In this document: piece by piece, positions 1,717-14,733 of the stretch
Layout: every line of letters starts with the position of its first letter
Position numbering within the stretch: position 1 is the stretch's first letter
Assembly: GCA_013153635.1 (NCBI GenBank)
Contig: JAADDZ010000017.1
Location: 1-14,825 of the forward strand
DNA from: Aquificota bacterium
Lineage (GTDB): Bacteria > Aquificota > Aquificia > Aquificales > Hydrogenothermaceae
Direction: 5' to 3'
Length of the DNA stretch: 14,825 nucleotides
Program-made: the position numbers and the translations under genes
Notes under the pieces: generated by a model
What the model saw: only the letters and a program-made list of their open reading frames with translations
The model's database searches: none
What the model was told of the DNA's origin: nothing

Positions 1717-1733
1717 TACTATTGCTTATAGTA
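1717..1733. promoter_or_regulatory. Operator candidate 1 of the copper efflux operon
   Basis: TACTAT-TGCTT-ATAGTA is a perfect 6-bp inverted repeat with a 5-base centre. It covers the likely -35 element TTGCTT and lies upstream of a gene set that includes a BlaI/CopY-type repressor. A similar dyad follows 42 bp away, about four helical turns. Confidence 0.5.
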
Positions 1734-1749: not shown

Positions 1750-1759
1750 AATACTTAAA

Positions 1760-1774
1760 ACTACAAGGAGTAGT
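1760..1774. promoter_or_regulatory. Operator candidate 2 enclosing the lipoprotein ribosome site
   Basis: ACTAC-AAGGA-GTAGT is a perfect 5-bp inverted repeat whose centre is the Shine-Dalgarno sequence of the first gene (AAGGAG at 1765-1770, twelve bases before ATG 1783). Its arms resemble the first dyad (ACTAT/ATAGT against ACTAC/GTAGT), which supports a shared DNA-binding protein. An RNA hairpin would instead present the ribosome site in a loop. Confidence 0.45.
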
Positions 1775-1782
1775 AGAACAAA

Positions 1783-2175
1783 ATGAAAAGGCAAATTAGT
1801 CTATTTATTGCGTTAATATTAACTGTATTCATCACAGCTTGTAATAAAAAAGAAGGATTTAAAAAAGAACTCCAAAATGAAGGATACAAAGCAGTAATAA
1901 CATCTAACAAACCTCTACACATTGGGATAAACATATGGAAAATAAAAATTTATTCTCCAGATGGAAAACCTCTAACAGGGGCTAAAGTGTATATAAATGG
2001 TTATATGCCACCAATGCCCGGCATGCCTGAAATGAGTTTTGACTATCCAGTAGAAGACAAAGGAAATTACTATGAAGCTAAAGTAAATCTGTCTATGGCA
2101 GGAACTTGGCAGATAACAATAAAAGCAGAAAAAAACGGTAAAACAACAACATTTAAGTTTGGATTTAACTTATAA
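1783..2175 (+). CDS. YtkA/FixH-like lipoprotein with methionine ladder, probable periplasmic copper-binding protein
   Basis: A 130-residue secreted protein with a lipoprotein signal: positive start, hydrophobic residues 5-17, and lipobox ITAC with C20 as the lipidated cysteine. The rest is a small beta sandwich resembling the YtkA/FixH-type domain found in many copper pump operons (KIYSPDGKPLTGAKV, then an AGTWQITI strand). Residues 75-84 read MPPMPGMPEM, placing Met at 75, 78, 81 and 84, a pattern suited to soft metals such as Cu(I) or Ag(I). It is the first gene of the operon, 12 bp before the repressor gene. A metallochaperone role delivering copper to the pump, as CusF does, is inference; direct homology to CusF is not evident. 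Confidence 0.75.
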   Translation: MKRQISLFIALILTVFITACNKKEGFKKELQNEGYKAVITSNKPLHIGINIWKIKIYSPDGKPLTGAKVYINGYMPPMPGMPEMSFDYPVEDKGNYYEAKVNLSMAGTWQITIKAEKNGKTTTFKFGFNL

Positions 2176-2187
2176 GGGGGATAACGT

Positions 2188-2613
2188 ATGGAATTTTTCA
2201 AAAAAGCTTTTAAGGCTTTAAGGTTCAATAAGAATAAACCTACTGTCTTTGGAGAACTTGAAGAAAAAGTGATAAATATAATCTGGGAGAAAAAAAGCGG
2301 AACTGTTAGCGAAGTTAGGGAAATCCTTGGAAAAGAAAAATTTGCCCACACAACAATAATGACAATCCTTGATAGGCTTTATAAAAAAGGAATTTTAAAA
2401 AGAGAAAAAGAGGGAAAAGGCTATAGATATTTTCCACTAATCACCAAAGAAGAATTCGAAAGAGAAGTCGCAAAAAAAGTGATAAAAGATATAGTCAAAG
2501 GAAAACCTGACGTTGCAATTGCCGCATTTGAAGGCGTTTTGGAAGAACTTTCTCAAGAAGAGATAAAAAAACTAAAACACCTTATCCAGCAAAAGGTAAA
2601 AGATGAAGAATAA
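2188..2613 (+). CDS. BlaI/MecI/CopY-family transcriptional repressor
   Basis: A 141-residue winged-helix protein. Residues about 20-75 carry the family pattern: LEEKVINIIW, GTVSEVREIL, then the recognition helix TTIMTILDRLYKKGIL and the wing KREKEGKGYRY. The C-terminal helical part is the usual dimer region. A strong ribosome site (AAGGGGG, nine bases before ATG) follows the lipoprotein stop. It overlaps the M56 protease gene by 11 bp, the BlaI-BlaR1 or MecI-MecR1 arrangement. It contains no cysteine, so it lacks the CxCxxxxCxC metal motif of copper-sensing CopY and probably cannot sense metal alone. The first 17 residues are a basic extension not typical of BlaI. The likely target is the two dyads before the operon. 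Confidence 0.9.
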   Translation: MEFFKKAFKALRFNKNKPTVFGELEEKVINIIWEKKSGTVSEVREILGKEKFAHTTIMTILDRLYKKGILKREKEGKGYRYFPLITKEEFEREVAKKVIKDIVKGKPDVAIAAFEGVLEELSQEEIKKLKHLIQQKVKDEE

Positions 2614-3379
2614 ACTTTTTTTCTTAATGGTCTTTTTAATAAGTACTTATGTTTATATCTACTTTTTGCTTATATCTAATCTTGAGAGTTGGATAGTTGA
2701 TATAAAAAGTTGCTTTAAAGTTATGGAAAAAGCGGATTTTTTTATTGAACATACAAATGTATTTTTTTATTTGATATTGTTTGGTTTCATGAGCTTTTCT
2801 GTTTTAAAGGTTTTTATAAAAGCTTTTCTAGAGCTAAAAAAAGCTTTTCTACTAAAGAATAGTATAAATTTACTTAAGATTAAATCTTATAAAAACATAA
2901 TTATTATAAACTTTCCAAAACCTGTGGCATTTAACTTCTTAGATAAGATTGTTTTATCCTCTACTATCCTAAAAGGCTTAAGTAAAAAAGAGAAAAAAGC
3001 TGTCTTTTACCATGAAGTTGGACATTTAAAAAATTTAGATAGTTTTAAATTATTTGTAATTAATATTGCTCTGTCTTTATTTCCAAAACTTGTTAATAAG
3101 AAACTTTTCAGTGGTGTTTTATTAGAAGCAGAACATAATGCAGATACTTTTGCCAGTTTAAAGGTTGGAAAAGAATCTCTTGCGAATGCTCTTATTAATG
3201 TAAAAAGTCTAATTTCAAGTTATCCACTAATGAATAACTTCACCCAAAAAAGAATCGAAATGCTACTCGAAAAGAAAGATTTTAAACTGCCAAAAACTAT
3301 TTGGTTCATATCTTTGTTTTTCTTCACAACACTATTTTTACTACTATGTTACAAAACCTGTTTTTGCGGTACTATGTAG
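2603..3379 (+). CDS. M56-family (BlaR1/MecR1-like) membrane zinc protease, signal transducer
   Basis: A 258-residue membrane protein with the gluzincin zinc site HEVGH (H137, E138, H141) and a downstream EAEHNAD segment (175-181) that supplies the third ligand. Hydrophobic segments lie near residues 5-25, 52-72, 150-162 and 233-249. The stretch PVAFNF before the active site also matches M56 proteins. In BlaR1, a C-terminal penicillin-binding domain senses the drug and activates the protease, which leads to BlaI cleavage. That domain is absent here: the protein ends nine residues after the last helix with C249, C253 and C255. It sits between the repressor gene (11-bp overlap) and cusC (start directly after the stop). 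Metal sensing through the Cys tail is inference. Confidence 0.85.
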   Translation: MKNKLFFLMVFLISTYVYIYFLLISNLESWIVDIKSCFKVMEKADFFIEHTNVFFYLILFGFMSFSVLKVFIKAFLELKKAFLLKNSINLLKIKSYKNIIIINFPKPVAFNFLDKIVLSSTILKGLSKKEKKAVFYHEVGHLKNLDSFKLFVINIALSLFPKLVNKKLFSGVLLEAEHNADTFASLKVGKESLANALINVKSLISSYPLMNNFTQKRIEMLLEKKDFKLPKTIWFISLFFFTTLFLLLCYKTCFCGTM

Positions 3380-4600
3380 ATGTTAAAAGTTTTGGTTTTG
3401 ATTGTAACTTTTTTATCTGAATTTTCGTTTGCAATAACTGTAGAACAACTAGCAGAAAACATAGCAAAAAATCACCCTAAGATAAAATCTATAGAATACA
3501 GATTAAAAGCCCTAAAAGAAAGGCAAACCTTTGAAAATAGTTTACCTGACCCTGTAATTACTTTTTCTATCAATGATATTCAGCTATTTTACAGACCATT
3601 TGCAAGGAACTTAGAGCCGATGCAAACTATAAACTTTGGTTTTTCTCAAAAAATACCTTACCTTCCAAAGCTCAAACAAAAATCCAAAATCATAAAAGTA
3701 AAATACAACAAAACTTACTATAAGCTTTTATTAGAAAAGCTAGAACTAAAATTTGATATATACAAACATGTATACCTTTTTTGGCAGACAAAAGAAAAAC
3801 TAAAAGTACTAGAGGAATTTAAAAACATAGCAAAACATCTAATCGAATTTTCCAACACACTATACAGCATTGGGAAAATATCACAGGCAGAAGTGTTTAA
3901 CACGAATGTATTTTATTCAGAGCTTCTTCAAAGAGAAGTCTTTTTAAAGGGAAGACTAAAGCAGATAGAAAGTAGTTTTGCATACTTTAGTGAAGTTTCT
4001 CTAAAAGAGATAGACATAAAGGTAACCTATCCAAGTGATGTTTTAGAGTTAAATATATTTTTAAAATTTCTAAAAAGAAATAACCCCCAGCTTTTAGTTT
4101 TAAAAGAAGAACTAAAAGAGGCAAAAGAAAAAGTAAAACTTGCAAAACTTGACTATAAACCAGATTTTTCAGTCTTTGCTACATATGCATATAGAAACCC
4201 ATTTAGAGATTATGTATCTTTTGGAGGGAGCTTTAATATACCGCTGTGGGCAAAGAAAAAACAAGAAAAGAAAGTTTTAGAAGAGAGCTTTTATAAACTG
4301 TCAAAAAAGAAAAAACTTTTAGATATAGAAAAAATGCTTATTTCAAAACTTCAAGAAGAGTACTACAAGGCAAAAACTTCATATGAAAGCTTTAAAGTGT
4401 TCCATCAGTATCTAAAGCCACAAACTCAAAAAGTTTATGAAGGTGTACTTTCAGAGTATCAGGTAGGCAAGAAAAATATATTTGATGTACTAAAGGCTTT
4501 AAACCAAATTTTGACTGTACGACAAAAAATAATAGATGAAACTGTAAACTACCACATCGCGTATAAAAACATTCAAAAACTTATGGGGACACTAAAATGA
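3380..4600 (+). CDS. cusC: Outer-membrane efflux protein of the TolC family (CusC-like)
   Basis: A 406-residue protein with a signal peptide (cleavage likely after A18, FSFA-ITVEQ) and two outer-membrane efflux repeats, roughly residues 20-210 and 220-403. Typical marks are AENIAKNHPKIKS near the N-terminus, the QKIPYLPKL strand, and GGSFNIPLW in the second repeat. It forms the trimeric outer-membrane duct of an RND metal pump. No lipobox is seen, unlike E. coli CusC. The ATG follows the M56 stop without a gap and has no ribosome site, so translation is probably coupled; the stop overlaps the cusB start by four bases (ATGA). Membership of the Cu/Ag pump is given by its neighbours. Confidence 0.9.
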   Translation: MLKVLVLIVTFLSEFSFAITVEQLAENIAKNHPKIKSIEYRLKALKERQTFENSLPDPVITFSINDIQLFYRPFARNLEPMQTINFGFSQKIPYLPKLKQKSKIIKVKYNKTYYKLLLEKLELKFDIYKHVYLFWQTKEKLKVLEEFKNIAKHLIEFSNTLYSIGKISQAEVFNTNVFYSELLQREVFLKGRLKQIESSFAYFSEVSLKEIDIKVTYPSDVLELNIFLKFLKRNNPQLLVLKEELKEAKEKVKLAKLDYKPDFSVFATYAYRNPFRDYVSFGGSFNIPLWAKKKQEKKVLEESFYKLSKKKKLLDIEKMLISKLQEEYYKAKTSYESFKVFHQYLKPQTQKVYEGVLSEYQVGKKNIFDVLKALNQILTVRQKIIDETVNYHIAYKNIQKLMGTLK

Positions 4601-5787
4601 AAAACAAAGTTTTAATAGTTATCATTGCTTTAATCTCTGCTTTAGTAGGACTTACTGCTGGTTTTGTTTTTAAAATATATGACAAGGTAGACTTTGAGAG
4701 CTTAATATACAAAGAAGACAAAACTATAAAAAGTGAAAACCTACCAGTTAAAACAACCACCAGACCTGTAGATATATTAACAGTAGAACAGCTTTTTAAC
4801 ATTGACACGACAGTTGTTAGGAAAATGAAACTTGCAAAAACCATAGAAACATATGCAGATGTAGTTCACCCAGAAACAGACCTAAAAGAGATAGTTTTTA
4901 AGATTGACGGCTATGTAGAAGAGATTTACGCAGATTTTACAGGAAAGTATATAAAAAAAGGACAACCTCTTGTGAAGATATACAGTCCGGAGCTTGTTTC
5001 AGCACAGGAAGAGTTCTTAAGAGCTTATGAATATCTAAAAAGCGTTGAGAACTCCAAGGATTATATTATAAAAAACACAGCAAAAAAACTTTATGAAGCA
5101 TCTTACAAAAAGCTCTTATATTGGGACATAACACCAAAACAGATAGAAAATCTAAAAAAAACGAAAAAAGTTATGAAAACTCTCACCCTATACTCCCCTT
5201 ACGATGGCTGGATTATGGAAAAGTATATTTACCTTGGCTCTAAAATTCAGGCAGGTAAACCCTTGTTTAGAATAGCAAACCACGAAAAACTATGGGTTTT
5301 AGCAAAGATTTATGAACCATACCTATCTTTTGTAAAAGAAGGATTAAATGTAGAACTTTACTTTGATAGTTACCCAGATAAAAAAATCATAGGAAAAATA
5401 GATTATATCTATCCAATAATAGACTTTAAAAACAGAACAATAGACGCTCGTATAGTAATAGATAATAAGAACTACAAATACATTCCAAAAATGTATTCAA
5501 AGGTTATAGTAAAAATTTTTCTTGGAGAAAAACTTGTTTTGCCTGATACAGCTGTTATCAACACAGGAAAAAGGCAGATAGTATTTTGGCAAAAGGAAAA
5601 AGGTGTATTTGAGCCAGTATTTGTAAAACTTGGAATGTTTGTAGATGGGTTTTATGAGATAAAGGAGGGACTTCACGAAGGTATGGTCGTTGCAAACTCT
5701 GCACTGTTCTTGCTTGATGCAGATGCCCAGCTAAGAGGTAAGTACTCAAAAGACAAAAAACAAACTAATATGATACATCATCATTAA
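4597..5787 (+). CDS. cusB: RND periplasmic adaptor subunit (CusB-like)
   Basis: A 396-residue membrane fusion protein with an N-terminal membrane anchor (residues 4-26). The barrel-sandwich halves are near 98-132 (FKIDGYVEEIYADFTGKYIK) and 195-228 (LYSPYDGWI...GKPLFRI), with the helical hairpin between them and a beta barrel from about 230. CusB proteins link the inner-membrane pump to the outer duct and hand Cu(I)/Ag(I) to CusA. The protein ends in MIHHH (392-396), a short possible metal-binding tail. No fused CusF domain or heavy-metal-binding N-terminal domain is present. Start ATG overlaps cusC's stop, so the two are translationally coupled; cusA follows after 54 bp with its own ribosome site. 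Confidence 0.9.
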   Translation: MKNKVLIVIIALISALVGLTAGFVFKIYDKVDFESLIYKEDKTIKSENLPVKTTTRPVDILTVEQLFNIDTTVVRKMKLAKTIETYADVVHPETDLKEIVFKIDGYVEEIYADFTGKYIKKGQPLVKIYSPELVSAQEEFLRAYEYLKSVENSKDYIIKNTAKKLYEASYKKLLYWDITPKQIENLKKTKKVMKTLTLYSPYDGWIMEKYIYLGSKIQAGKPLFRIANHEKLWVLAKIYEPYLSFVKEGLNVELYFDSYPDKKIIGKIDYIYPIIDFKNRTIDARIVIDNKNYKYIPKMYSKVIVKIFLGEKLVLPDTAVINTGKRQIVFWQKEKGVFEPVFVKLGMFVDGFYEIKEGLHEGMVVANSALFLLDADAQLRGKYSKDKKQTNMIHHH

Positions 5788-5841: not shown

Positions 5842-8800
5842 ATGATAGAGAAGATAATAGACTGGTCAGTCAGGAATAAGATAATAGTTCTATCTTTAAT
5901 AGCCTTAGTGCTTGGAGCTTCCCTATGGGCTTTAAAGGAAACACCCCTTGATGCAATACCAGACCTATCACCTCCACAGGTTATAGTATGGACGAAGTGG
6001 TCTGGTCAATCACCACAGATTATAGAAGACCAGATAACATACCCTCTAGTCAGCACACTTTTATCAGTTCCAAATATAGAAACTGTTAGAGGAATATCTT
6101 CATTTGAGACCTCCGCCGTTTATGTGATTTTCAAAGAAGGAACTAATATTTACTGGGCAAGAAGCAGAGTTTTAGAATACTTGACCCAAATTAAAGACAA
6201 ACTACCAAAGTCTGCCGAAATCACTCTAGGAGCTGACGCCACAGGAGTGGGCTGGATATTTGAGTATGCTATCTTTTCAGAAAAGAGAAATCTATGGCAA
6301 CTTAGAACCCTTCAGGACTGGTATTTGAGATACCATCTTTTGTCTGTTGATGGGGTTGCTGAAGTAGCATCAGTTGGAGGTTTTGTAAAAGGTTATCAAA
6401 TCACGATAGACCCCCAAAAACTTAGAATCTATAACCTGTCTCTAAAACAAGTCCTAAAAGCCCTAAGAGAAAACAACAACGACACAGGCGGAAGAATTAT
6501 AGAGCATAACGGTTTTGAATACATAATTCAAGGTAAAGGTTATATCCAAAATTTAGAAGAAATAATGAACCTAACTATAAAAACAGATGAAAACGGAATA
6601 CCAATAAGGATAAAAGAGATAGGAAAAACAGAGCTTGTTCCAATGCCAAGAAGAGGAATAGCAGAGCTTAACGGTATCGGGGAAGTTGTAGGCGGGATTA
6701 TAGTAATGAGATTTGGAGAAAATGCCTACAGAGTTATCCAGAGTGTAAAACAAAAATTAAAAGAGATAAAACAGTCCCTACCAGAAGACATCAAAATAGT
6801 TACAACCTATGACCGCTTTGAGCTTATAGAAAAAGCGATAGCAACCTTAAAAAGAGCATTACTTGAAGAGATGTTAATAGTAACAGCAGTAATAGGACTG
6901 TTTTTGTTACATTTTAGAAGCTCGCTTGTAATAATACTAACCCTTCCACTAGCAGTTTTAATCGGATTTTTATTTATGAAAATGTTTGGAATTACATCAA
7001 ACATTATGTCCCTTGGAGGAATAGCTATAGCTATTGGAGCTATGGTAGATGGTGCTATCGTTATGGTAGAAAATGCCCACAAAAACCTTGAAAAATTAAA
7101 AAAAGAAAAAGGACATATCACAAACGAAAACAGAATAAAAGCAGTAATAAACGCATCTAAACAGGTAGGAAAACCTATATTTTTTGCACTACTTATTATA
7201 GTTGTTTCATTTTTACCTATTTTTGCTCTTTCAGGACAGGAAGGACTACTGTTTAAACCCCTTGCATACACAAAGACATTTACAATGCTAGCATCATCAG
7301 TTTTAACAATAACTCTTGTTCCAATCCTTATGCTATGGTTTATAAAAGGAAATATTATTCCAGAGCATAAAAACCCTATAAACTGGTTACTTATAAAACT
7401 TTACTCACCAATAATCAAACTTACATTAAAGGCAAGATATATAGTTTTAATACTTACTATCCTTGCAATATACGCAGTTTACCCACTTTATAAAAAACTA
7501 TCATGGGAATTTATGCCAATGTTTAATGAAGAAACCTTTATGTATATGCCTGTTACCCCTTTTGGAATATCAGCAGACGAAGCAAAAAGAATAACCCAGC
7601 TGACAGACAAAATACTTGCATCATTTCCAGAGGTAGACACTGTATTTGGAAAAGCAGGAAGAGCAGAAACAGCAACAGACCCAGCACCCCTTTCAATGAT
7701 AGAAACCATTATCACATTTAAGCCTAAAGAGTACTGGCGAGAAGGAATGACCTATGAAACTCTTATGCAAGAAATGGAAGATAAACTAAAAGTTCCGGGA
7801 CTCACAAACAGTTGGACTTACCCAATAAGAGGTAGAATTGATATGCTACTAACAGGCATAAAAACCCCTCTTGGGATAAAACTCTACGGAGATGATTTAG
7901 ATAAACTTCAAAAAGTTGCAACCCAAATAGAACAATCTCTATCAAAATTACCGCAAACCTTATCAGTTTTTGCAGATAGGATAGCCCAAGGGTATTACAT
8001 TAACATAGAGATAAACAAACAAAAACTTGCCAGATACTCCCTTACAACAGATGATATTTTAACAGTTATCCAAACAGCTATAGGAGGAATTCCTATTTCT
8101 ACAATCTACAAAGGACTTGAAAGATACCCACTACTTGTAAGATTTCCGTATGATTATAGAAATAATATACAAGCACTTAAAAATCTTATAATTCCAACCC
8201 CTTTAAACAGAGGAATACCCTTAAAAGAAGTAGCCAAAATATACTATAAAGAAGCCCCAATAGTGATAAAATCAGAAAAAGGAATGAAAGTAGTATTTAT
8301 CTATATAACGCCACAACCAGATGTACCTCTAAAAGAGTATATATCAAAAGCAAAAAAAGTCATTGCAAATATAAGCATACCTTCAGGATTTTTTATAGAA
8401 TGGGCTGGACAAAGTCAATATCTAAAGCACGCACAAGAAAAACTAAAGCTAATAATTCCTCTAACAATACTGATTATATTTTTACTTGTTTACATAATCT
8501 TTAAAGATATAACCAATACACTCATAGTAATGCTTTCGTTACCATTTGCATCTATTGGGGGGCTGTGGTACTTAGATTATCTAAATTTTAATATGAGTGT
8601 AGCAGTTGTAGTTGGATTTTTGGCACTTTTCGGAGTAGCAGTAGAAACAGCAATAATCATGATTCTGTACATAGAAAAGAGTATAGAAAAATATAAAAAA
8701 GAACACAAAGAGCTAACAAAAGAGTTGTTTTTCAAAGCAATTTACGAAGGAACAGTTTTAAGAGTTCGCCCAAAAATGATGACAGTTTTGACAATACTAG

Positions 8801-8958
8801 CAGGACTAATCCCACTTATGTACATAACAGGAGTAGGAAGTGAAGTTATGCAAAGGATAGCCGCACCAATGATAGGAGGAATAGTATCTTCAGCAATTTT
8901 AACCTTAGTAATTATACCTGCTCTTTATGCAACTTTTAAAAGTAGACTAAGAGAATGA
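5842..8958 (+). CDS. cusA: Heavy-metal RND efflux pump, Cu(I)/Ag(I) type (CusA-like)
   Basis: A full-length 1038-residue proton-driven inner-membrane pump. The TM4 motif GGIAIAIGAMVDGAIVMVEN (D403) has the form found in copper/silver exporters rather than the DFG form of Co/Zn/Cd pumps. Three methionines that bind Cu(I) in E. coli CusA (M573, M623, M672) have exact counterparts at M569 (YMP), M619 (PLSMIET) and M668 (RIDML), each shifted by four. The proton-relay residues are present as D403, E935 (AVETA) and K978 (RPKMM). AAGGG seven bases upstream of ATG is the ribosome site. It is the last gene of the operon and ends nine bases from a convergent gene with no evident terminator hairpin. Copper/silver specificity is inferred from these residues. 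Confidence 0.95.
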   Translation: MIEKIIDWSVRNKIIVLSLIALVLGASLWALKETPLDAIPDLSPPQVIVWTKWSGQSPQIIEDQITYPLVSTLLSVPNIETVRGISSFETSAVYVIFKEGTNIYWARSRVLEYLTQIKDKLPKSAEITLGADATGVGWIFEYAIFSEKRNLWQLRTLQDWYLRYHLLSVDGVAEVASVGGFVKGYQITIDPQKLRIYNLSLKQVLKALRENNNDTGGRIIEHNGFEYIIQGKGYIQNLEEIMNLTIKTDENGIPIRIKEIGKTELVPMPRRGIAELNGIGEVVGGIIVMRFGENAYRVIQSVKQKLKEIKQSLPEDIKIVTTYDRFELIEKAIATLKRALLEEMLIVTAVIGLFLLHFRSSLVIILTLPLAVLIGFLFMKMFGITSNIMSLGGIAIAIGAMVDGAIVMVENAHKNLEKLKKEKGHITNENRIKAVINASKQVGKPIFFALLIIVVSFLPIFALSGQEGLLFKPLAYTKTFTMLASSVLTITLVPILMLWFIKGNIIPEHKNPINWLLIKLYSPIIKLTLKARYIVLILTILAIYAVYPLYKKLSWEFMPMFNEETFMYMPVTPFGISADEAKRITQLTDKILASFPEVDTVFGKAGRAETATDPAPLSMIETIITFKPKEYWREGMTYETLMQEMEDKLKVPGLTNSWTYPIRGRIDMLLTGIKTPLGIKLYGDDLDKLQKVATQIEQSLSKLPQTLSVFADRIAQGYYINIEINKQKLARYSLTTDDILTVIQTAIGGIPISTIYKGLERYPLLVRFPYDYRNNIQALKNLIIPTPLNRGIPLKEVAKIYYKEAPIVIKSEKGMKVVFIYITPQPDVPLKEYISKAKKVIANISIPSGFFIEWAGQSQYLKHAQEKLKLIIPLTILIIFLLVYIIFKDITNTLIVMLSLPFASIGGLWYLDYLNFNMSVAVVVGFLALFGVAVETAIIMILYIEKSIEKYKKEHKELTKELFFKAIYEGTVLRVRPKMMTVLTILAGLIPLMYITGVGSEVMQRIAAPMIGGIVSSAILTLVIIPALYATFKSRLRE

Positions 8959-8967
8959 ATCTTTTGG

Positions 8968-9777
8968 TTAGGTAGAATTACAAACTTGAGGCTCGTATCT
9001 GAATATCATTTCTTTCAAAAGAAAATCAAATTCGAAACTTTCTGGATAAGAAACTTTTATCTTCCACTTTTTTAGGAAATTTTCGTAATATTCTAGGTTT
9101 TCTTCGATAAATCTATTTAAAATCTCAATTTTTGGTTTAAGCTCTAGTTCTTTAGATTTTTTCTTTTCTTCTAAAAGTTTTAAAATCTCTGCTTTTATAT
9201 TTTGGGAGATACTTACCAAGTTTATTAGTTTTTCAAACTCTATCGGAGGTATTTCCTTTTTCTCTTCAATATACTTTAAGGCTGAAATAGGTCTAAGCAC
9301 ATAAAAATATTTTTTTATCTTTACTAAATCCCCTCTTAGATACTCTCTATAGTTAGATTTTGTCATGTGGAGATAGTGATACATAAGAGATTTTGGATTG
9401 AATGATTTTTCCATAAGTTTTTTTATTTTTTTATAAAAGTCTTCATCTTTTAGATAAACGATGGGTGAGTTTAGCCACTCAATCAAGGAAGGGTTTGATT
9501 TTCGTAATAAAAATAAACTTTTCCTCAAATCCCACCCGACAAAGTCCAATTCTCCTTCTCGCAGTTCAATAACATCTCTTTTTTTCTCTATAGAAAGGTA
9601 ATAATCTAATCTGTTTACATAAATAAACCTAATATCATAATCACTATCAGGAGATTCAAATCCCCAAGCCCTGCTTCCAGATTCACATGCATAGAGGATT
9701 TTTATATTGTGTTTTTTTTCAATATCTTCAAGCCGGGTTGTTATATTCTTTTGCATATCTACTATTTTTCTTTCCAT
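8968..9777 (-). CDS. YcgL/RlaP-like nucleotidyltransferase
   Basis: A 269-residue protein of the polymerase beta superfamily, close in layout to the YcgL/RlaP group (Pfam PF10127 by recollection). The active-site stretch is ESGSRAWGFESPDSDYDIRF: G34-S35, catalytic D46 and D48, and a third acidic residue D78 in ELDF. The C-terminal two thirds is helical and charged. The gene starts inside the end of the ATPase gene, overlapping by 16 bp; a second ATG at 9754-9756 (residue 8) just past the ATPase stop is the alternative start. Such overlap implies coupled translation and a shared role. The substrate is unknown; RNA end modification and toxin-antitoxin or defence roles occur in relatives. It differs in class from the small MNT protein at the left end. 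Confidence 0.8.
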   Translation of the reverse strand: MERKIVDMQKNITTRLEDIEKKHNIKILYACESGSRAWGFESPDSDYDIRFIYVNRLDYYLSIEKKRDVIELREGELDFVGWDLRKSLFLLRKSNPSLIEWLNSPIVYLKDEDFYKKIKKLMEKSFNPKSLMYHYLHMTKSNYREYLRGDLVKIKKYFYVLRPISALKYIEEKKEIPPIEFEKLINLVSISQNIKAEILKLLEEKKKSKELELKPKIEILNRFIEENLEYYENFLKKWKIKVSYPESFEFDFLLKEMIFRYEPQVCNST

Positions 9778-11066
9778 AACAGTAAATACTCATACATAGG
9801 CATTATCTTTATATTTTTATCCCCAACAGTTATTTCGTCTTTTTCTTCATAGGTAAGAATTATTCCTTCTTTTTTGTTTAAATAATTTAATGCTTCTAAA
9901 AGACCTTTTATCTCTCTTTCTTTAGTTTTTTTATCCTGTAGGCTATAGCTAACCTGTATAGGAATAATATCTTTATCTTTTATCGCAACAAAATCACATT
10001 CTTTTTTCTCTTTAAAATAAAAAAGTTCGTATTCTCTTGCAATAAGCTCCTTTGCAAGGATATTCTCTAAAAGCTTCCCATAGTTTTCTAAAAAGGAAAA
10101 TGTAAGGGCAGTTAAGAAGCCGTTATCCACCAAGTAGGCTTTTTTCTGTGAAAACTCTGTTTTTAAAATCGACTTTGAAAACTTTTTTATAATCAGTATG
10201 AAAAAGACAGCCTCAAGCATATCAAAAAACTCATACAGAGTGTCTTTTGAGACTTTATAGCCTTGGGATTTTATTTCGTTATAGATGTTATTTATAGATA
10301 TAGGCTTGCCTATGCTTTCTATTAATCTTTTTGTAAAGTATTTAAGGATAGTTGGAGATTTTATATGGTATCTTTCTACTATATCTTTATAAAGCATAAC
10401 TTCAAAGTATTCTTGTAAAATTTTTATTTTTAAATTCTCATCTTCTACTTTAACAACTTCGGGAAAGCCACCAAATTTCATATACTCATTGAACAGATTT
10501 TTTAATATGGTTTTCTTTTCTAAAGAGTATAAATACTTTTTCTCAAACTCAAAATTTTTAAATTTAAGAAACTCTTTGAAACTTAGTGGAAAAATCTTAT
10601 AAGTTATAGTCCTGCCTCTCAAAGAGGTAGCTATTTCAGTAGAAAAAAGTTTTGAATTTGAGCCTGTAATAAAAATGTTTTTAGAGTAGTTGTCATAAAC
10701 CCTTCTAACAAATCTTTCCCAACCTTCAATATTTTGAATTTCATCAAAAAAGAAATAAACCTCATTTAGAGGAATTTCTGGATAAAGCTCTTTATACGCT
10801 TCAATCAGTAAACTAAGCTCTTCGGCTTTTAATTCCAGTCTTTCATCTTCAAAGCTTATGTAAACGATTTTTTCAATGGGTGTATTTTTTAAGAGCTTTT
10901 TTATTGTTTGAAACAAAGCATAAGTTTTTCCACTTCTTCTAACCCCAATTACTGATATTATTTTTTTGGTATTTATAGGTATAACAATATCCCTTTCTAT
11001 TATAAGAGGGAGTTTTTTTCCTTGAAAATCAATTATAAGCTCTTTAAGAATATCTTTCTTTTTCAT
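9762..11066 (-). CDS. AAA-type ATPase with C-terminal DUF4143 domain
   Basis: A 434-residue protein of the AAA_14-DUF4143 architecture. Walker A is GVRRSGKT (41-48), Walker B YFFFDEIQ (104-111, D108-E109), and sensor 1 lies in FITGSNS (132-138). The C-terminal part resembles a restriction-endonuclease fold: E334, then ECDFV with D358, then PIQVSYS. Active members carry (E/Q)xK at the last position, but here it is Q371-V-S373, so nuclease activity is doubtful. These ATPases are common, often mobile, and mostly uncharacterised. No ribosome site precedes the ATG; instead a pyrimidine arm TTTCCTT abuts it, and a mini-ORF overlaps the start. It is followed by the overlapping nucleotidyltransferase gene. 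Confidence 0.88.
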   Translation of the reverse strand: MKKKDILKELIIDFQGKKLPLIIERDIVIPINTKKIISVIGVRRSGKTYALFQTIKKLLKNTPIEKIVYISFEDERLELKAEELSLLIEAYKELYPEIPLNEVYFFFDEIQNIEGWERFVRRVYDNYSKNIFITGSNSKLFSTEIATSLRGRTITYKIFPLSFKEFLKFKNFEFEKKYLYSLEKKTILKNLFNEYMKFGGFPEVVKVEDENLKIKILQEYFEVMLYKDIVERYHIKSPTILKYFTKRLIESIGKPISINNIYNEIKSQGYKVSKDTLYEFFDMLEAVFFILIIKKFSKSILKTEFSQKKAYLVDNGFLTALTFSFLENYGKLLENILAKELIAREYELFYFKEKKECDFVAIKDKDIIPIQVSYSLQDKKTKEREIKGLLEALNYLNKKEGIILTYEEKDEITVGDKNIKIMPMYEYLLLWKEK

Positions 11067-11175: not shown

Positions 11176-12408
11176 TTATTTTTTATGTGAATTACTGTTC
11201 TCTTGCGTTTGTGTTTCTTCTTTAATGCTATATCTAAAGTTGATTATATCATTGTTTAGAAGATGTCTTTTAGGAATTGAAATTGTCAACGAAATACTTT
11301 CAGGAACTTTATTTTTGTTAACCTTATTACTATCTTTATTCTTATCGTTTTCTTTATACTCATTTTTTAATTTATTCTTTATCCAGATACTATCATTACC
11401 ATTCCAGATTATTTTTAAATTCTTAAAACATTTGAAAGATTTACTAAGGTTTTCTTTATTTTGTAAGGAAAACTTTATGGGAACTTTTATTCTTAAATCT
11501 GTGTCTTCATATAGGATTGAACATATTCCGTTACAACTATACTCCAATATATTGGAATTTAACATTATATTTAAAGGAAAATCTTCTTTTATACAAACTA
11601 TATTTTTATTTGAAGTAACTCCTAGGAAAGAGTAAGAGGTTTCTAAAAATTTTATGAATCCATTCCAGTTAAAAAACAGATATATTATAGGAAGAGTTGC
11701 TAAGAGAATAGAAGGCACATATTCTCCAGTATAAATACTTAACCCTGATAATAAAATAAGAATTATCGTTATAATAACGACTATCAAGGTTGATATAAAA
11801 TCAAAATTTCCTAATACAAACCATATAAAAAATAATGACATTGAAGAAATTAGAATAAAAAAAGATGATATTGTCCTGAATATGGAAATAGTTATCAATT
11901 TAAAAAAGGGTAAATCAATTCTCTTCTTACTGTAAAAGAAATCAGCAAGTCCTACTATTAATAAAATTAGAAAAATTACATAAAAATACTCACTTTCCTT
12001 AAAGGAAATCAATAAGCCCAGTAAAATTGCCACTATATGTAAAGCACCAATTATAAATACAAATTGTCCTTTTTCTTTATTTGCTTTAATGTCTGGATAA
12101 ATATATAGAAAAGTAAAAAAGAATAAGAAAAATCCTACTGCTACTAAAGTTATTATCGAGGCAAAACCAACTACAGCTATAGTTATCAGAATCAAAAACT
12201 TAACTGGTATAGTATCAAATGACATATCTACAGGCAAAAACCTATGGTAGAGAAAATATGGAATAATAAACACTGCAAATCCATATATTGATACAAGAGA
12301 TAGGATTTTTCCTAAAGGAAAGTCCTTAATTAGCTCTAAAAATTTTTGTGAATCAGAATTTTTGTCATGTCTATTGTTTTTTAAAGGATTGTTTTCTTTT
12401 TCTTTCAT
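11176..12408 (-). CDS. Unrecognised multi-helix membrane protein downstream of cas3
   Basis: I do not recognise this 410-residue protein. The first 30 residues are charged and polar. About eight hydrophobic helices follow, near residues 34-54, 69-89, 90-105, 115-136, 141-159, 172-199, 203-224 and 230-248. Residues 250-410 form a soluble part with four cysteines (C272, C292, C296, C327), beta-rich segments (LRIKVPIKF, ESISLTISI) and a lysine/asparagine-rich linker near 346-368. The ATG has a good ribosome site (GAGGGA, eight bases upstream). The gene begins 36 bp after the cas3 stop on the same strand, so it is probably co-transcribed with cas3. Sampled stretches are only 22-23% GC, far below cas3, which suggests later acquisition. 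A membrane effector role in defence is conceivable but unsupported by any motif. Confidence 0.8.
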   Translation of the reverse strand: MKEKENNPLKNNRHDKNSDSQKFLELIKDFPLGKILSLVSIYGFAVFIIPYFLYHRFLPVDMSFDTIPVKFLILITIAVVGFASIITLVAVGFFLFFFTFLYIYPDIKANKEKGQFVFIIGALHIVAILLGLLISFKESEYFYVIFLILLIVGLADFFYSKKRIDLPFFKLITISIFRTISSFFILISSMSLFFIWFVLGNFDFISTLIVVIITIILILLSGLSIYTGEYVPSILLATLPIIYLFFNWNGFIKFLETSYSFLGVTSNKNIVCIKEDFPLNIMLNSNILEYSCNGICSILYEDTDLRIKVPIKFSLQNKENLSKSFKCFKNLKIIWNGNDSIWIKNKLKNEYKENDKNKDSNKVNKNKVPESISLTISIPKRHLLNNDIINFRYSIKEETQTQENSNSHKK

Positions 12409-12444: not shown

Positions 12445-14733
12445 CTATAAAAATATATCTTCATCTACTCCATACTTTTCCAGTAAATCTTTGTTTAATC
12501 TTATTCCCAGCTTATCGTCGTATTCAAAATATTTTGCTGAAACTATGATGTTGTAATTTTTATCTAAAATTTCAAATGGAGATTTATCTTTTAGTCTTTC
12601 GTCTAACAGCCAATACATTGGGATAGGGACTTTTATGTCGTTTAGCTGTTTTAGTATGTTTATTCTTTTTAATCTTCTTTCTTTTCTATCTGGGATTTGT
12701 TTAATCTCTTCCAGATTTTCCAGTAAACGCTCTGCTTCTTCTTTGAACTTGTAAGGCACTACTTCAACGCTGAAGGTGTCTCTGAATATCCTCTGGGCTT
12801 CACTTTTGAACAGGTAATCCCAGTTTGAGTTTAATACTTTTTCAACCTCATTCCATCTCTCCAGATATTTTGAGTTAAGCCTTTCCAGTGTTTCCTGTGA
12901 GTATAGTATCTCTACGATTTTTCTTTTTGCCTGCGATAGTAAAAAGCCGTCCTTTGAGAGATATTTTTCAATCAGTTTTATACTTTCTTCTCTTAAGGCT
13001 TTTTCGTATATTTGGGAGTTTTTCTTCTCGTCAACCTGCGTCAGAATGTAAACATTAGGCTCTTTTCCTGAATAATCGGTCGTCCTGTTTCTCCATACTC
13101 TTCCCATTCTTTGTATCAGGCTGTCTGCTGTTGCAACCTCTGTAAACAAAATATCAAAATCTATATCTAACGACGCCTCTACAAGCTGAGTTGAAATCCA
13201 GATTATACCTTTTTTTGTTTTGTAATCGTTTCTTATCTGCTCTTCTTTTCCTTTTCTTGTTTTCCATATAAAACGGCTGTGTAGTAGATTAGCTCTGTCT
13301 TTTAATTTCTGATAAAGCTCTTGGGCTGTGGAGACGGTGTTTGTAATGATTAGAATGTTTTTCCCTTTATCTGCAAGCTGGATTATTTTATCCACTGCCG
13401 AAAATATGTCCCTGTTTACTATTTCTACCTTGTGTCTTTTTGTGTTGTCTATCGTTTCTGGCTCGTTTGTCTTTATCTCAAAGCCTATCTTTTCAAGCTT
13501 CTCCTTAACAATTTGTGGAAGTGTTGCCGTTATTATTAAGTATCTCGTTCCAAGCTTTATTGTTTCCTTTATTTGCCTTATTATCGGCACAATTTGAGCT
13601 GGCTCAAAGCCTTGTATTTCGTCTATTATGATGTCTGAATAGGATAGTGTGGCGTATATTTTTTCATAGGTAGGATACTTAAAAACTGCCGTAAAAAGCT
13701 GGTCTGCCGTTGATATAGTTGCTGGCTTTGATAGATTTTTAGTATTTTCAAAGTCCCTTAAAATTGTGTAGTCTTCTGAATCTGCGTTTTCGTGTATGTA
13801 AAACAGGCTCGTTGAGTGCAGTAGACCTATTTTTTCACTTCCAAAAATATCCTTCATAGTCTCAAACATGGCATTTGTGGAGGCTCTATTTGGCAGTATG
13901 TAAAACATCTTCCTTTTTGACCACAAAACAGCAAGTCCGGTTTTCCCTAATCCTGTATCTGCCACTAAAACTAAATTTTCCCTGTCTTTGAATTTTTTCT
14001 GAAATGGTCTTAATTTTGGCTTAATGCCTTTCTTTTTTAGATAACTGAAAAACAGGCTTTCCCTGTCTGCACTTATAGGTTCTTCCTCAACTGTTAAGTC
14101 TTCCCCTGATGCCGAGTGGTCTATTCTTATTAATAGTCCAGCGATTTTAATTAAGCTTTTAATAAAATCTGTTTCACTTTCAAATTTTTCATTTAAGTTT
14201 TTTATATTAGCAACTTCATCAACTATATGTTCTAAATATTTTTTGTAAAACTCCTCCGTTTCTAATGATAGTTTCGTAATCCCAATGTGTGAAAAGAAGT
14301 CTTTTATATTACCTTTTATATCGTTTATTAAAATATCTATTCCCTTGCTGTTTAGATACTCTTCTCTTCCTCTTGAGTGATGGTTTATAATGGCATAAAT
14401 AAGAAATAACATTTCTTTTGGTGAAAAATTACTCTCTAATTTTCTCAAAAAAAGCGGAGATAAATATTGATGTGGCACTCTGTCATCTTTCTCACCGGCT
14501 CCACAACGGACAGGCTTGTCTTTAATCGGCAATTTACACTGAAAAAGCCTGTTTAACTTGCCGTAATCGTGGTAGTGTATAGCTGTTTTTAGTATTTCTT
14601 TTTCTTTATCAGTCAAAACATTGGGATAGTAGCTCGTAAAAACATCAAACTGCTTTTTTAAATCGTTAATATGCTCCTCTATGGTAGTTCCATCGCTTTT
14701 AGCAAGAAGTTTCTTAAGGTAATCTGTAAACAA
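12445..14733 (-). CDS. cas3: CRISPR-associated helicase-nuclease Cas3 with N-terminal HD domain
   Basis: A 762-residue type I Cas3. The HD domain shows H21, H55-D56 (HYHDYGK), H88, H118-H119 (INHHSRG) and D205-H206. The superfamily 2 helicase follows: Walker A ADTGLGKT (258-265), DEIQ (371-374) in the DExD/H position, TAT (402-404), motif IV near 460-475, motif V ISTQLVEASLDID (513-525) and motif VI QRMGRVWR (541-548). DEIQ rather than DEVH or DECH occurs in type I-B relatives. Cas3 is recruited by Cascade to unwind and degrade target DNA. The start is TTG 14731-14733, with AAAGGA eight bases upstream. It has its own promoter and is divergent from the next gene, so no cas5 lies directly upstream. 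The domain set looks complete. Confidence 0.95.
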   Translation of the reverse strand: MFTDYLKKLLAKSDGTTIEEHINDLKKQFDVFTSYYPNVLTDKEKEILKTAIHYHDYGKLNRLFQCKLPIKDKPVRCGAGEKDDRVPHQYLSPLFLRKLESNFSPKEMLFLIYAIINHHSRGREEYLNSKGIDILINDIKGNIKDFFSHIGITKLSLETEEFYKKYLEHIVDEVANIKNLNEKFESETDFIKSLIKIAGLLIRIDHSASGEDLTVEEEPISADRESLFFSYLKKKGIKPKLRPFQKKFKDRENLVLVADTGLGKTGLAVLWSKRKMFYILPNRASTNAMFETMKDIFGSEKIGLLHSTSLFYIHENADSEDYTILRDFENTKNLSKPATISTADQLFTAVFKYPTYEKIYATLSYSDIIIDEIQGFEPAQIVPIIRQIKETIKLGTRYLIITATLPQIVKEKLEKIGFEIKTNEPETIDNTKRHKVEIVNRDIFSAVDKIIQLADKGKNILIITNTVSTAQELYQKLKDRANLLHSRFIWKTRKGKEEQIRNDYKTKKGIIWISTQLVEASLDIDFDILFTEVATADSLIQRMGRVWRNRTTDYSGKEPNVYILTQVDEKKNSQIYEKALREESIKLIEKYLSKDGFLLSQAKRKIVEILYSQETLERLNSKYLERWNEVEKVLNSNWDYLFKSEAQRIFRDTFSVEVVPYKFKEEAERLLENLEEIKQIPDRKERRLKRINILKQLNDIKVPIPMYWLLDERLKDKSPFEILDKNYNIIVSAKYFEYDDKLGIRLNKDLLEKYGVDEDIFL

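Follow-up and report, generated by a model that had tools for sequence, protein, structure and literature searches.

Introduction

The membrane protease BlaR1 cleaves the N101-F102 bond of the repressors MecI and BlaI. The protease domain of BlaR1 is oriented toward the cytoplasm, while the loop EL1 (residues 56–96), which lies between helices α2 and α3, and the C-terminus are outside; H201ExxH205, D210, E242xxxD246, and R293/R294 are functional, and α3, the link between EL1 and the protease, moves when EL1 is displaced from the sensor domain (PMC9834060). TACA/TGTA operators have been described for BlaI, MecI, and CopY (PMC7253601). A pair of the same type responds to copper in the cyanobacterium Synechocystis, where PetR/PetP (slr0240/slr0241) combine a BlaI-type regulator with a BlaR1-type protease, and activation of the protease by copper leads to degradation of the regulator (PMC7896320, PMC13421787, PMC12292863). 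BlaR-family homologues of PetR/PetP were also found in heterotrophs in a survey of marine bacteria, with their role unknown (PMC10141476), and how sensor-less BlaR1-type proteases perceive signals is an open question, stated as such for the M. tuberculosis homologue (PMC9834060). Our literature search found no paper reporting a Cus or Czc pump under BlaI/M56 control, or a protease of this type with a metal site. Here we describe a locus through which the heat-loving Hydrogenothermaceae appear to run Cu/Ag export on the principle of the penicillin-resistance switch of staphylococci.

Results

Organization of the operon, its pump, and its operator

The stretch of DNA analyzed here (14,825 nucleotides, hereafter the window) contains a six-gene operon on the forward strand, encoding a YtkA-type lipoprotein, a BlaI-type repressor, a BlaR1-like protease, TolC, CusB, and CusA (Table 1), with the reading frames of the repressor and the protease overlapping by 11 bases. 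The lipoprotein carries an invariant Met-rich GYMPPMPGMPEM stretch, its gene holds the identical position in all relatives whose contig covers that part, and the protein is possibly a periplasmic metal chaperone. The C-terminus of the CusB-type adaptor is His-rich (MIHHH).

Table 1. Features of the operon and its control region in the window.
Feature	Position	Strand	Remarks
Operator, dyad TACTA-N7-TAGTA (TACTATTGCTTATAGTA)	1717..1733	+	upstream of first gene
Possible second operator, one mismatch (AACTACAAGGAGTAGTA)	1759..1775	+	overlaps ribosome-binding site; weaker; window only
YtkA-like lipoprotein gene	1783..2175	+	operon gene 1; Pfam YtkA 78.6 bits
BlaI/MecI-type repressor gene	2188..2613	+	Pfam Penicillinase_R
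BlaR1-like (M56/M48-type gluzincin) membrane protease gene	2603..3379	+	258 aa, 3 TM helices, no sensor domain
Protease outer loop, residues 27–52, matching BlaR1 EL1 and start of helix α3	2681..2758	+	invariant W30, D33, C37, M41, H50; proposed metal site, half 1
Protease catalytic HEVGH (H137–H141)	3011..3025	+	invariant H137, E138, H141
Protease C-terminal tail past last helix	3350..3376	+	invariant C253, C255; CxC-G/S-(x)-M; proposed metal site, half 2
TolC-family outer membrane factor gene	3380..4600	+	Pfam OEP
CusB-type periplasmic adaptor gene	4597..5787	+	Pfam HlyD_D23, NCBIfam CusB/CzcB
CusA-type Cu(I)/Ag(I) RND pump gene	5842..8958	+	Met triad, TM4 motif

The pump scores 1041 bits against E. 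coli CusA versus 520 bits against the zinc pump ZneA. It has the Cu/Ag methionine triad (M569/M619/M668, equivalent to M573/M623/M672 of CusA), kept in all aligned relatives, and a TM4 motif, AIGAMVDGAIVMVEN, in which Ala replaces Asp and which reads AIGAMVDGA or a near variant in the relatives. Because of the triad, the TM4 motif, and the closer match to CusA, Cu(I)/Ag(I) is the cargo expected of this pump from its sequence, in keeping with the name of copper operon given to the locus in the initial annotation.

Upstream of the first gene lies an operator-like dyad, TACTA-N7-TAGTA, broadly similar in type to the TACA/TGTA operators of BlaI, MecI, and CopY. Of the 20 upstream regions scanned, 17 contain the exact pattern, where a dinucleotide-based simulation predicts 0.018; among the exceptions, the sites of L032 and L048 lie outside or inside the chosen stretch, with the start codon probably misplaced, and L044 is truncated where its contig stops. 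The window itself has a single site (0.03 expected) and, for its own promoter, no recognizable sigma-70 match; in one relative (L031), a −35 box, TTGACA, falls within the dyad. Extending the search to the whole genome gave 10 exact sites against 4 for a reversed control, showing that the bare pattern alone defines no regulon, and the only other genomic site with a TACTAC half (L092) lies within unrelated genes.

A BlaI-type repressor and a BlaR1-like protease without a sensor domain

The repressor matches the Penicillinase_R winged helix of Pfam with 101 bits (curated cut-off 22.6), and MecI and BlaI are its top solved matches. It contains no cysteine at all, and hence lacks the C-terminal Cys-X-Cys metal motif of CopY/CopR; its score against the CopY model TIGR02698 (68 bits) is likewise below the cut-off of 122. 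The absence of a CopY metal site from this cysteine-free repressor, pointed out in the initial annotation, is thus borne out. Its A113-F114 (codons 2524–2529) aligns with N101-F102 of MecI/BlaI, F114 corresponding to MecI F102, and Phe at the P1′ position of the BlaR1 cleavage site is invariant among 21 repressor homologues.

The protease had been described as an M56-type enzyme that overlaps the repressor gene and has no penicillin-binding domain, a description that we can endorse on the basis of its HEVGH motif, its length, and the first rank of BlaR1 by sequence and fold, even though its score against the Pfam M56 model itself is under the cut-off. The Pfam scores are 30.3 bits for M48 (cut-off 20.3) and 20.5 bits for Peptidase_M56 (cut-off 31); the sibling proteases G076, G079, and G081 pass the latter cut-off, and the HtpX equivalog models all score the window protease far under theirs. 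The first sequence match of the family profile is S. aureus BlaR1 (E = 3e-8). An AlphaFold2 model computed from a 15-sequence input reached a pLDDT of 88, and the solved folds that match it best are without exception those of S. aureus BlaR1 (Z = 11.3, with model residues 1–215 placed on BlaR1 32–289; Foldseek E = 1e-3). By fold and sequence, therefore, BlaR1 is closer to the window protease than the M48 enzymes HtpX and Ste24 are.

The gluzincin signature is complete (H137ExxH141 and E177xxxD181), and the invariant H137ExxH141, D146, E177xxxD181, and R217 are the counterparts of BlaR1 H201ExxH205, D210, E242xxxD246, and R293/R294. R217 stands five residues past a conserved aromatic residue, F212, within a low-confidence loop of the model, and this loop may match the BlaR1 autocleavage loop, a correspondence that is suggestive only. 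The penicillin-binding sensor domain is absent, the chain stopping 9 residues past the last helix. In BlaR1 terms, the protease maps to α2, EL1, α3, the protease domain, and the last TM helix, with α1 and the sensor domain missing. Because of this segment correspondence and the cryo-EM topology of BlaR1, we infer that the loop bearing C37, M41, and H50 and the CxC tail lie on the periplasmic face. The positive-inside rule agrees, the N-terminus having about 2.5 K/R, the loop a net negative charge, the protease domain a net charge of +11, and the tail one K/R. The tail is accordingly predicted to be outside, as the proposal of the initial annotation requires, and not cytoplasmic.

Invariant candidate metal ligands in the outer loop and tail

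An alignment of 15 full-length proteases, 30–53% identical to the window protein, contains 18 invariant positions (W30, D33, C37, M41, H50, F110, S119, H137, E138, H141, D146, P161, E177, D181, P208, R217, C253, and C255). The window protease has 15 Cys, Met, or His residues, of which seven are invariant, namely the catalytic zinc ligands H137 and H141 and, on the outer face, C37, M41, H50, C253, and C255. Invariance thus applies to 5 of 6 such residues on the outer face versus none of 7 elsewhere (Fisher p = 0.005, for rows that are not independent). Besides the catalytic zinc ligands, the family alignment shows no conserved Cys, Met, or His on the cytoplasmic side.

C253 and C255 are kept in all 17 proteases with a known C-terminus, the interrupted G065 and G093 copies included, and a Met follows C255 by 2–3 residues in each of the 15 aligned proteases. 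The initial annotation had proposed a metal site made by three tail cysteines. Two of these, C253 and C255, hold up, whereas C249 is present in the window protein only and was rejected as a ligand; the proposal was also incomplete, since the probable site takes in C37, M41, and H50 of the loop, which, like the operator, had not been noted before. The 17 homologues all belong to one bacterial family, and invariance among them could be structural instead.

Sister operons on plasmids and other BlaI-protease pairs

The order BlaI, M56, TolC, adaptor, and CusA/CzcA recurs on plasmids of Shewanella sp. ANA-3, Pseudoalteromonas, Glaciecola, and P. aeruginosa, which places the same regulator pair before the same pump gene order as in the window. 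These proteases are longer (about 325–331 aa versus 258 aa), and, outside the stretch seen for P. aeruginosa, a HupE/UreJ-type gene lies downstream. In the pumps, the motif is DFGLLVDGA or DFGLIVDGA and the methionine triad is missing, a pattern of divalent-metal pumps, and the operons have a common operator-like dyad, AAACCGAT...ATCGGTTT, different from TACTA-N7-TAGTA. The proteases of the Alteromonadales plasmids retain HWHH and SSWH in the loop and HH..E....H in the tail; that of the P. aeruginosa plasmid has C, H, H, C, and WH in the loop, including two cysteines, and LHSVTE in the tail. Judged from these sequences, there is an apparent and striking match between ligand type and pump type in the two groups, with Cys/Met/His beside Cu/Ag pumps and mainly His/Glu beside divalent-metal pumps.

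BlaI-protease pairs were noted at several individual loci. A conjugative P. aeruginosa plasmid (L133, 6977–14135) has a BlaI-M56 pair before a Czc-type pump, and a Salmonella plasmid (NZ_CP100354.1, about 52550–53913) has a pair whose protease is 79% identical to that of Shewanella. On a Meiothermus plasmid (L135, 4950–6249), BlaI adjoins an M48-type protease that ends in Cys; genes for an ArsR-type regulator and a heavy-metal P-type ATPase lie nearby, and the pair is possibly another metal version. Pairs with no pump gene nearby were seen in Aliiroseovarius (L080, 7001–8531) and, near gluconate genes, in Pseudoalteromonas sp. CuT4-3 (L134, 7001–9009); the pair as such therefore implies no metals.

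Distribution and surroundings of the locus

In the genomes searched, close relatives of the protease are confined to one Aquificota family, the named records being Hydrogenothermaceae, Hydrogenothermus, and Persephonella, and the six-gene order is identical in those Hydrogenothermaceae contigs that are long enough to show it. Of 136 Aquificota genomes, 21 have BlaI, and exactly these 21 also have the protease; one further genome (G054) has a distant protease match and no BlaI. BlaI and the protease are both present in all genomes whose CusA shares 74% identity or more with that of the window, and the CusA relatives found elsewhere in Aquificota, at most 54% identical, occur without BlaI of the window type. 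The viral contigs searched contained no protease homologue, and the plasmids searched no close one. Distant profile matches in Aquificaceae were set aside; L070 is a stand-alone protease without BlaI, and most of the others span the HExxH region only, as HtpX-like proteins would. In one relative (G065; L033, 7619–8398), codon 86 of the protease gene is an in-frame TAG, either decay or a sequencing error, and the repressor and pump genes are intact.

The copper operon seems to be set into a defence-rich stretch, flanked at a distance by a Cas4-family gene (1093–1650) and a Cas3-like HD and helicase gene (12445–14733), both on the reverse strand. The reverse strand also encodes an MNT-type nucleotidyltransferase and a Fic-domain protein together with a small ORF of the sort expected for an antitoxin partner (118–1065), an RlaP RNA-repair-type nucleotidyltransferase overlapped by an AAA_14/DUF4143 ATPase (8968–11066), and a 410-aa multi-helix membrane protein with zero Pfam matches, which adjoins the Cas3-like gene (11176–12408).

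Discussion

The locus is probably a self-regulated Cu/Ag export operon, governed by a proteolytic BlaI/BlaR1-type switch that senses metal through the outer loop and tail of the protease. At rest, the BlaI-type repressor would occupy TACTA-N7-TAGTA and block the promoter that serves all six genes, its own and that of the protease among them. On a rise in periplasmic Cu(I)/Ag(I), the metal would be bound by C37, M41, and H50 of the loop together with C253, C255, and the last Met of the tail. It would stand in for the sensor domain by bridging the EL1-like loop and the tail, where BlaR1 bears its penicillin-binding domain; the proposed ligands are located at EL1, where α3 starts (H50), and at the position where the sensor domain would start. 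Such bridging may shift the second helix, the counterpart of BlaR1 α3 and the connector from loop to protease, and so make the active site available. The activated protease would then cleave the repressor near A113-F114, derepressing the operon, and CusCBA and the YtkA lipoprotein would clear the metal.

The pair might instead control the operon by repressor proteolysis while its outer Cys, Met, and His residues are structural or redox-active, for instance in a C37-CxC disulfide, and the protease senses membrane or protein damage caused by copper. A vicinal CxC and a third Cys on the periplasmic side could indeed make disulfides, and, where we infer metal binding by the outer residues, β-lactam switches rely on a folded sensor domain and not on bare residues. 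We nevertheless consider this explanation unlikely; the invariant Met41, His50, and terminal Met would be superfluous for a disulfide, yet are usual Cu(I)/Ag(I) ligands, and the sister proteases beside divalent-metal pumps carry mainly His/Glu in the same loop and tail. It is very improbable that the metal acts elsewhere (at the catalytic face or within the cytoplasm, for example), in a PetR/PetP-like manner that leaves the outer residues a role in folding only: the reviews consulted state that copper directly activates PetP and do not place its binding site, but the cytoplasmic side of the window family is devoid of conserved candidates other than the zinc ligands. Finally, that the protease is a housekeeping enzyme or a decaying passenger, with another regulator handling copper, has in its favor the stop codon of the G065 relative, but we give it hardly any credence in view of the strict linkage of the protease to BlaI and the CusA subtype, the invariance of all its catalytic residues, the clear operator, and a genome with zero CsoR-family repressors (in a search limited to that family).

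Sensing of Cu(I)/Ag(I) by the loop and tail, the reading that we prefer, would have some practical appeal: the receptor is small, five invariant residues are candidate ligands, and both a cleavage position and an operator can be named, so that a few point mutants would make the question tractable. Judging by the contrast with the divalent-metal sister operons, changes of loop and tail residues may be a means of redirecting the class. A broader generalization, which we put forward tentatively, is that sensor-less BlaR1-like proteases could be modular periplasmic metal receptors whose EL1 loop and tail form the site, with ligands matched to the co-encoded RND pump (Cys/Met/His in Hydrogenothermaceae, mainly His/Glu on proteobacterial plasmids).

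Several known systems share parts of this arrangement. With BlaI/BlaR1 and MecI/MecR1 of staphylococci, the window pair has in common the repressor family, the gluzincin fold, the catalytic residues, a cytoplasm-facing protease, and the Phe at the cleavage position; unlike BlaR1 and MecR1, its protease has neither a penicillin-binding domain nor α1, and bears instead a short loop and a 9-residue tail with residues of metal-ligand type. CopY/CopR belong to the same winged-helix repressor family and control a copper export operon, but sense metal via Cys-X-Cys in the repressor, whereas here the repressor is without the motif and the membrane partner would sense the metal. E. coli CusRS/cusCFBA resembles the locus in its pump type (CusA; E = 0 to 3k07) and in periplasmic Cu(I)/Ag(I) as the probable signal; CusRS, however, is a two-component phosphorelay, where the window has a repressor and a protease, and a YtkA-type lipoprotein replaces CusF. 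The initial annotation regarded the locus as a possible proteolytic metal-sensing route distinct from CueR, CusRS, and CopY. The CopY-type Cys motif is indeed lacking, but the claim was overstated in one respect, for PetR/PetP is a known copper-sensing proteolytic pair of the BlaI/BlaR1 type (PMC7896320, PMC13421787). To that copper-activated pair the present one is likened by description only, and the targets differ, plastocyanin and cytochrome c6 (petE/petJ) for PetR/PetP and a TolC-CusB-CusA detoxification operon for the window pair. Relative to PetR/PetP, what is new here is the candidate metal site, the export pump as a target, and the apparent match between ligands and pump.
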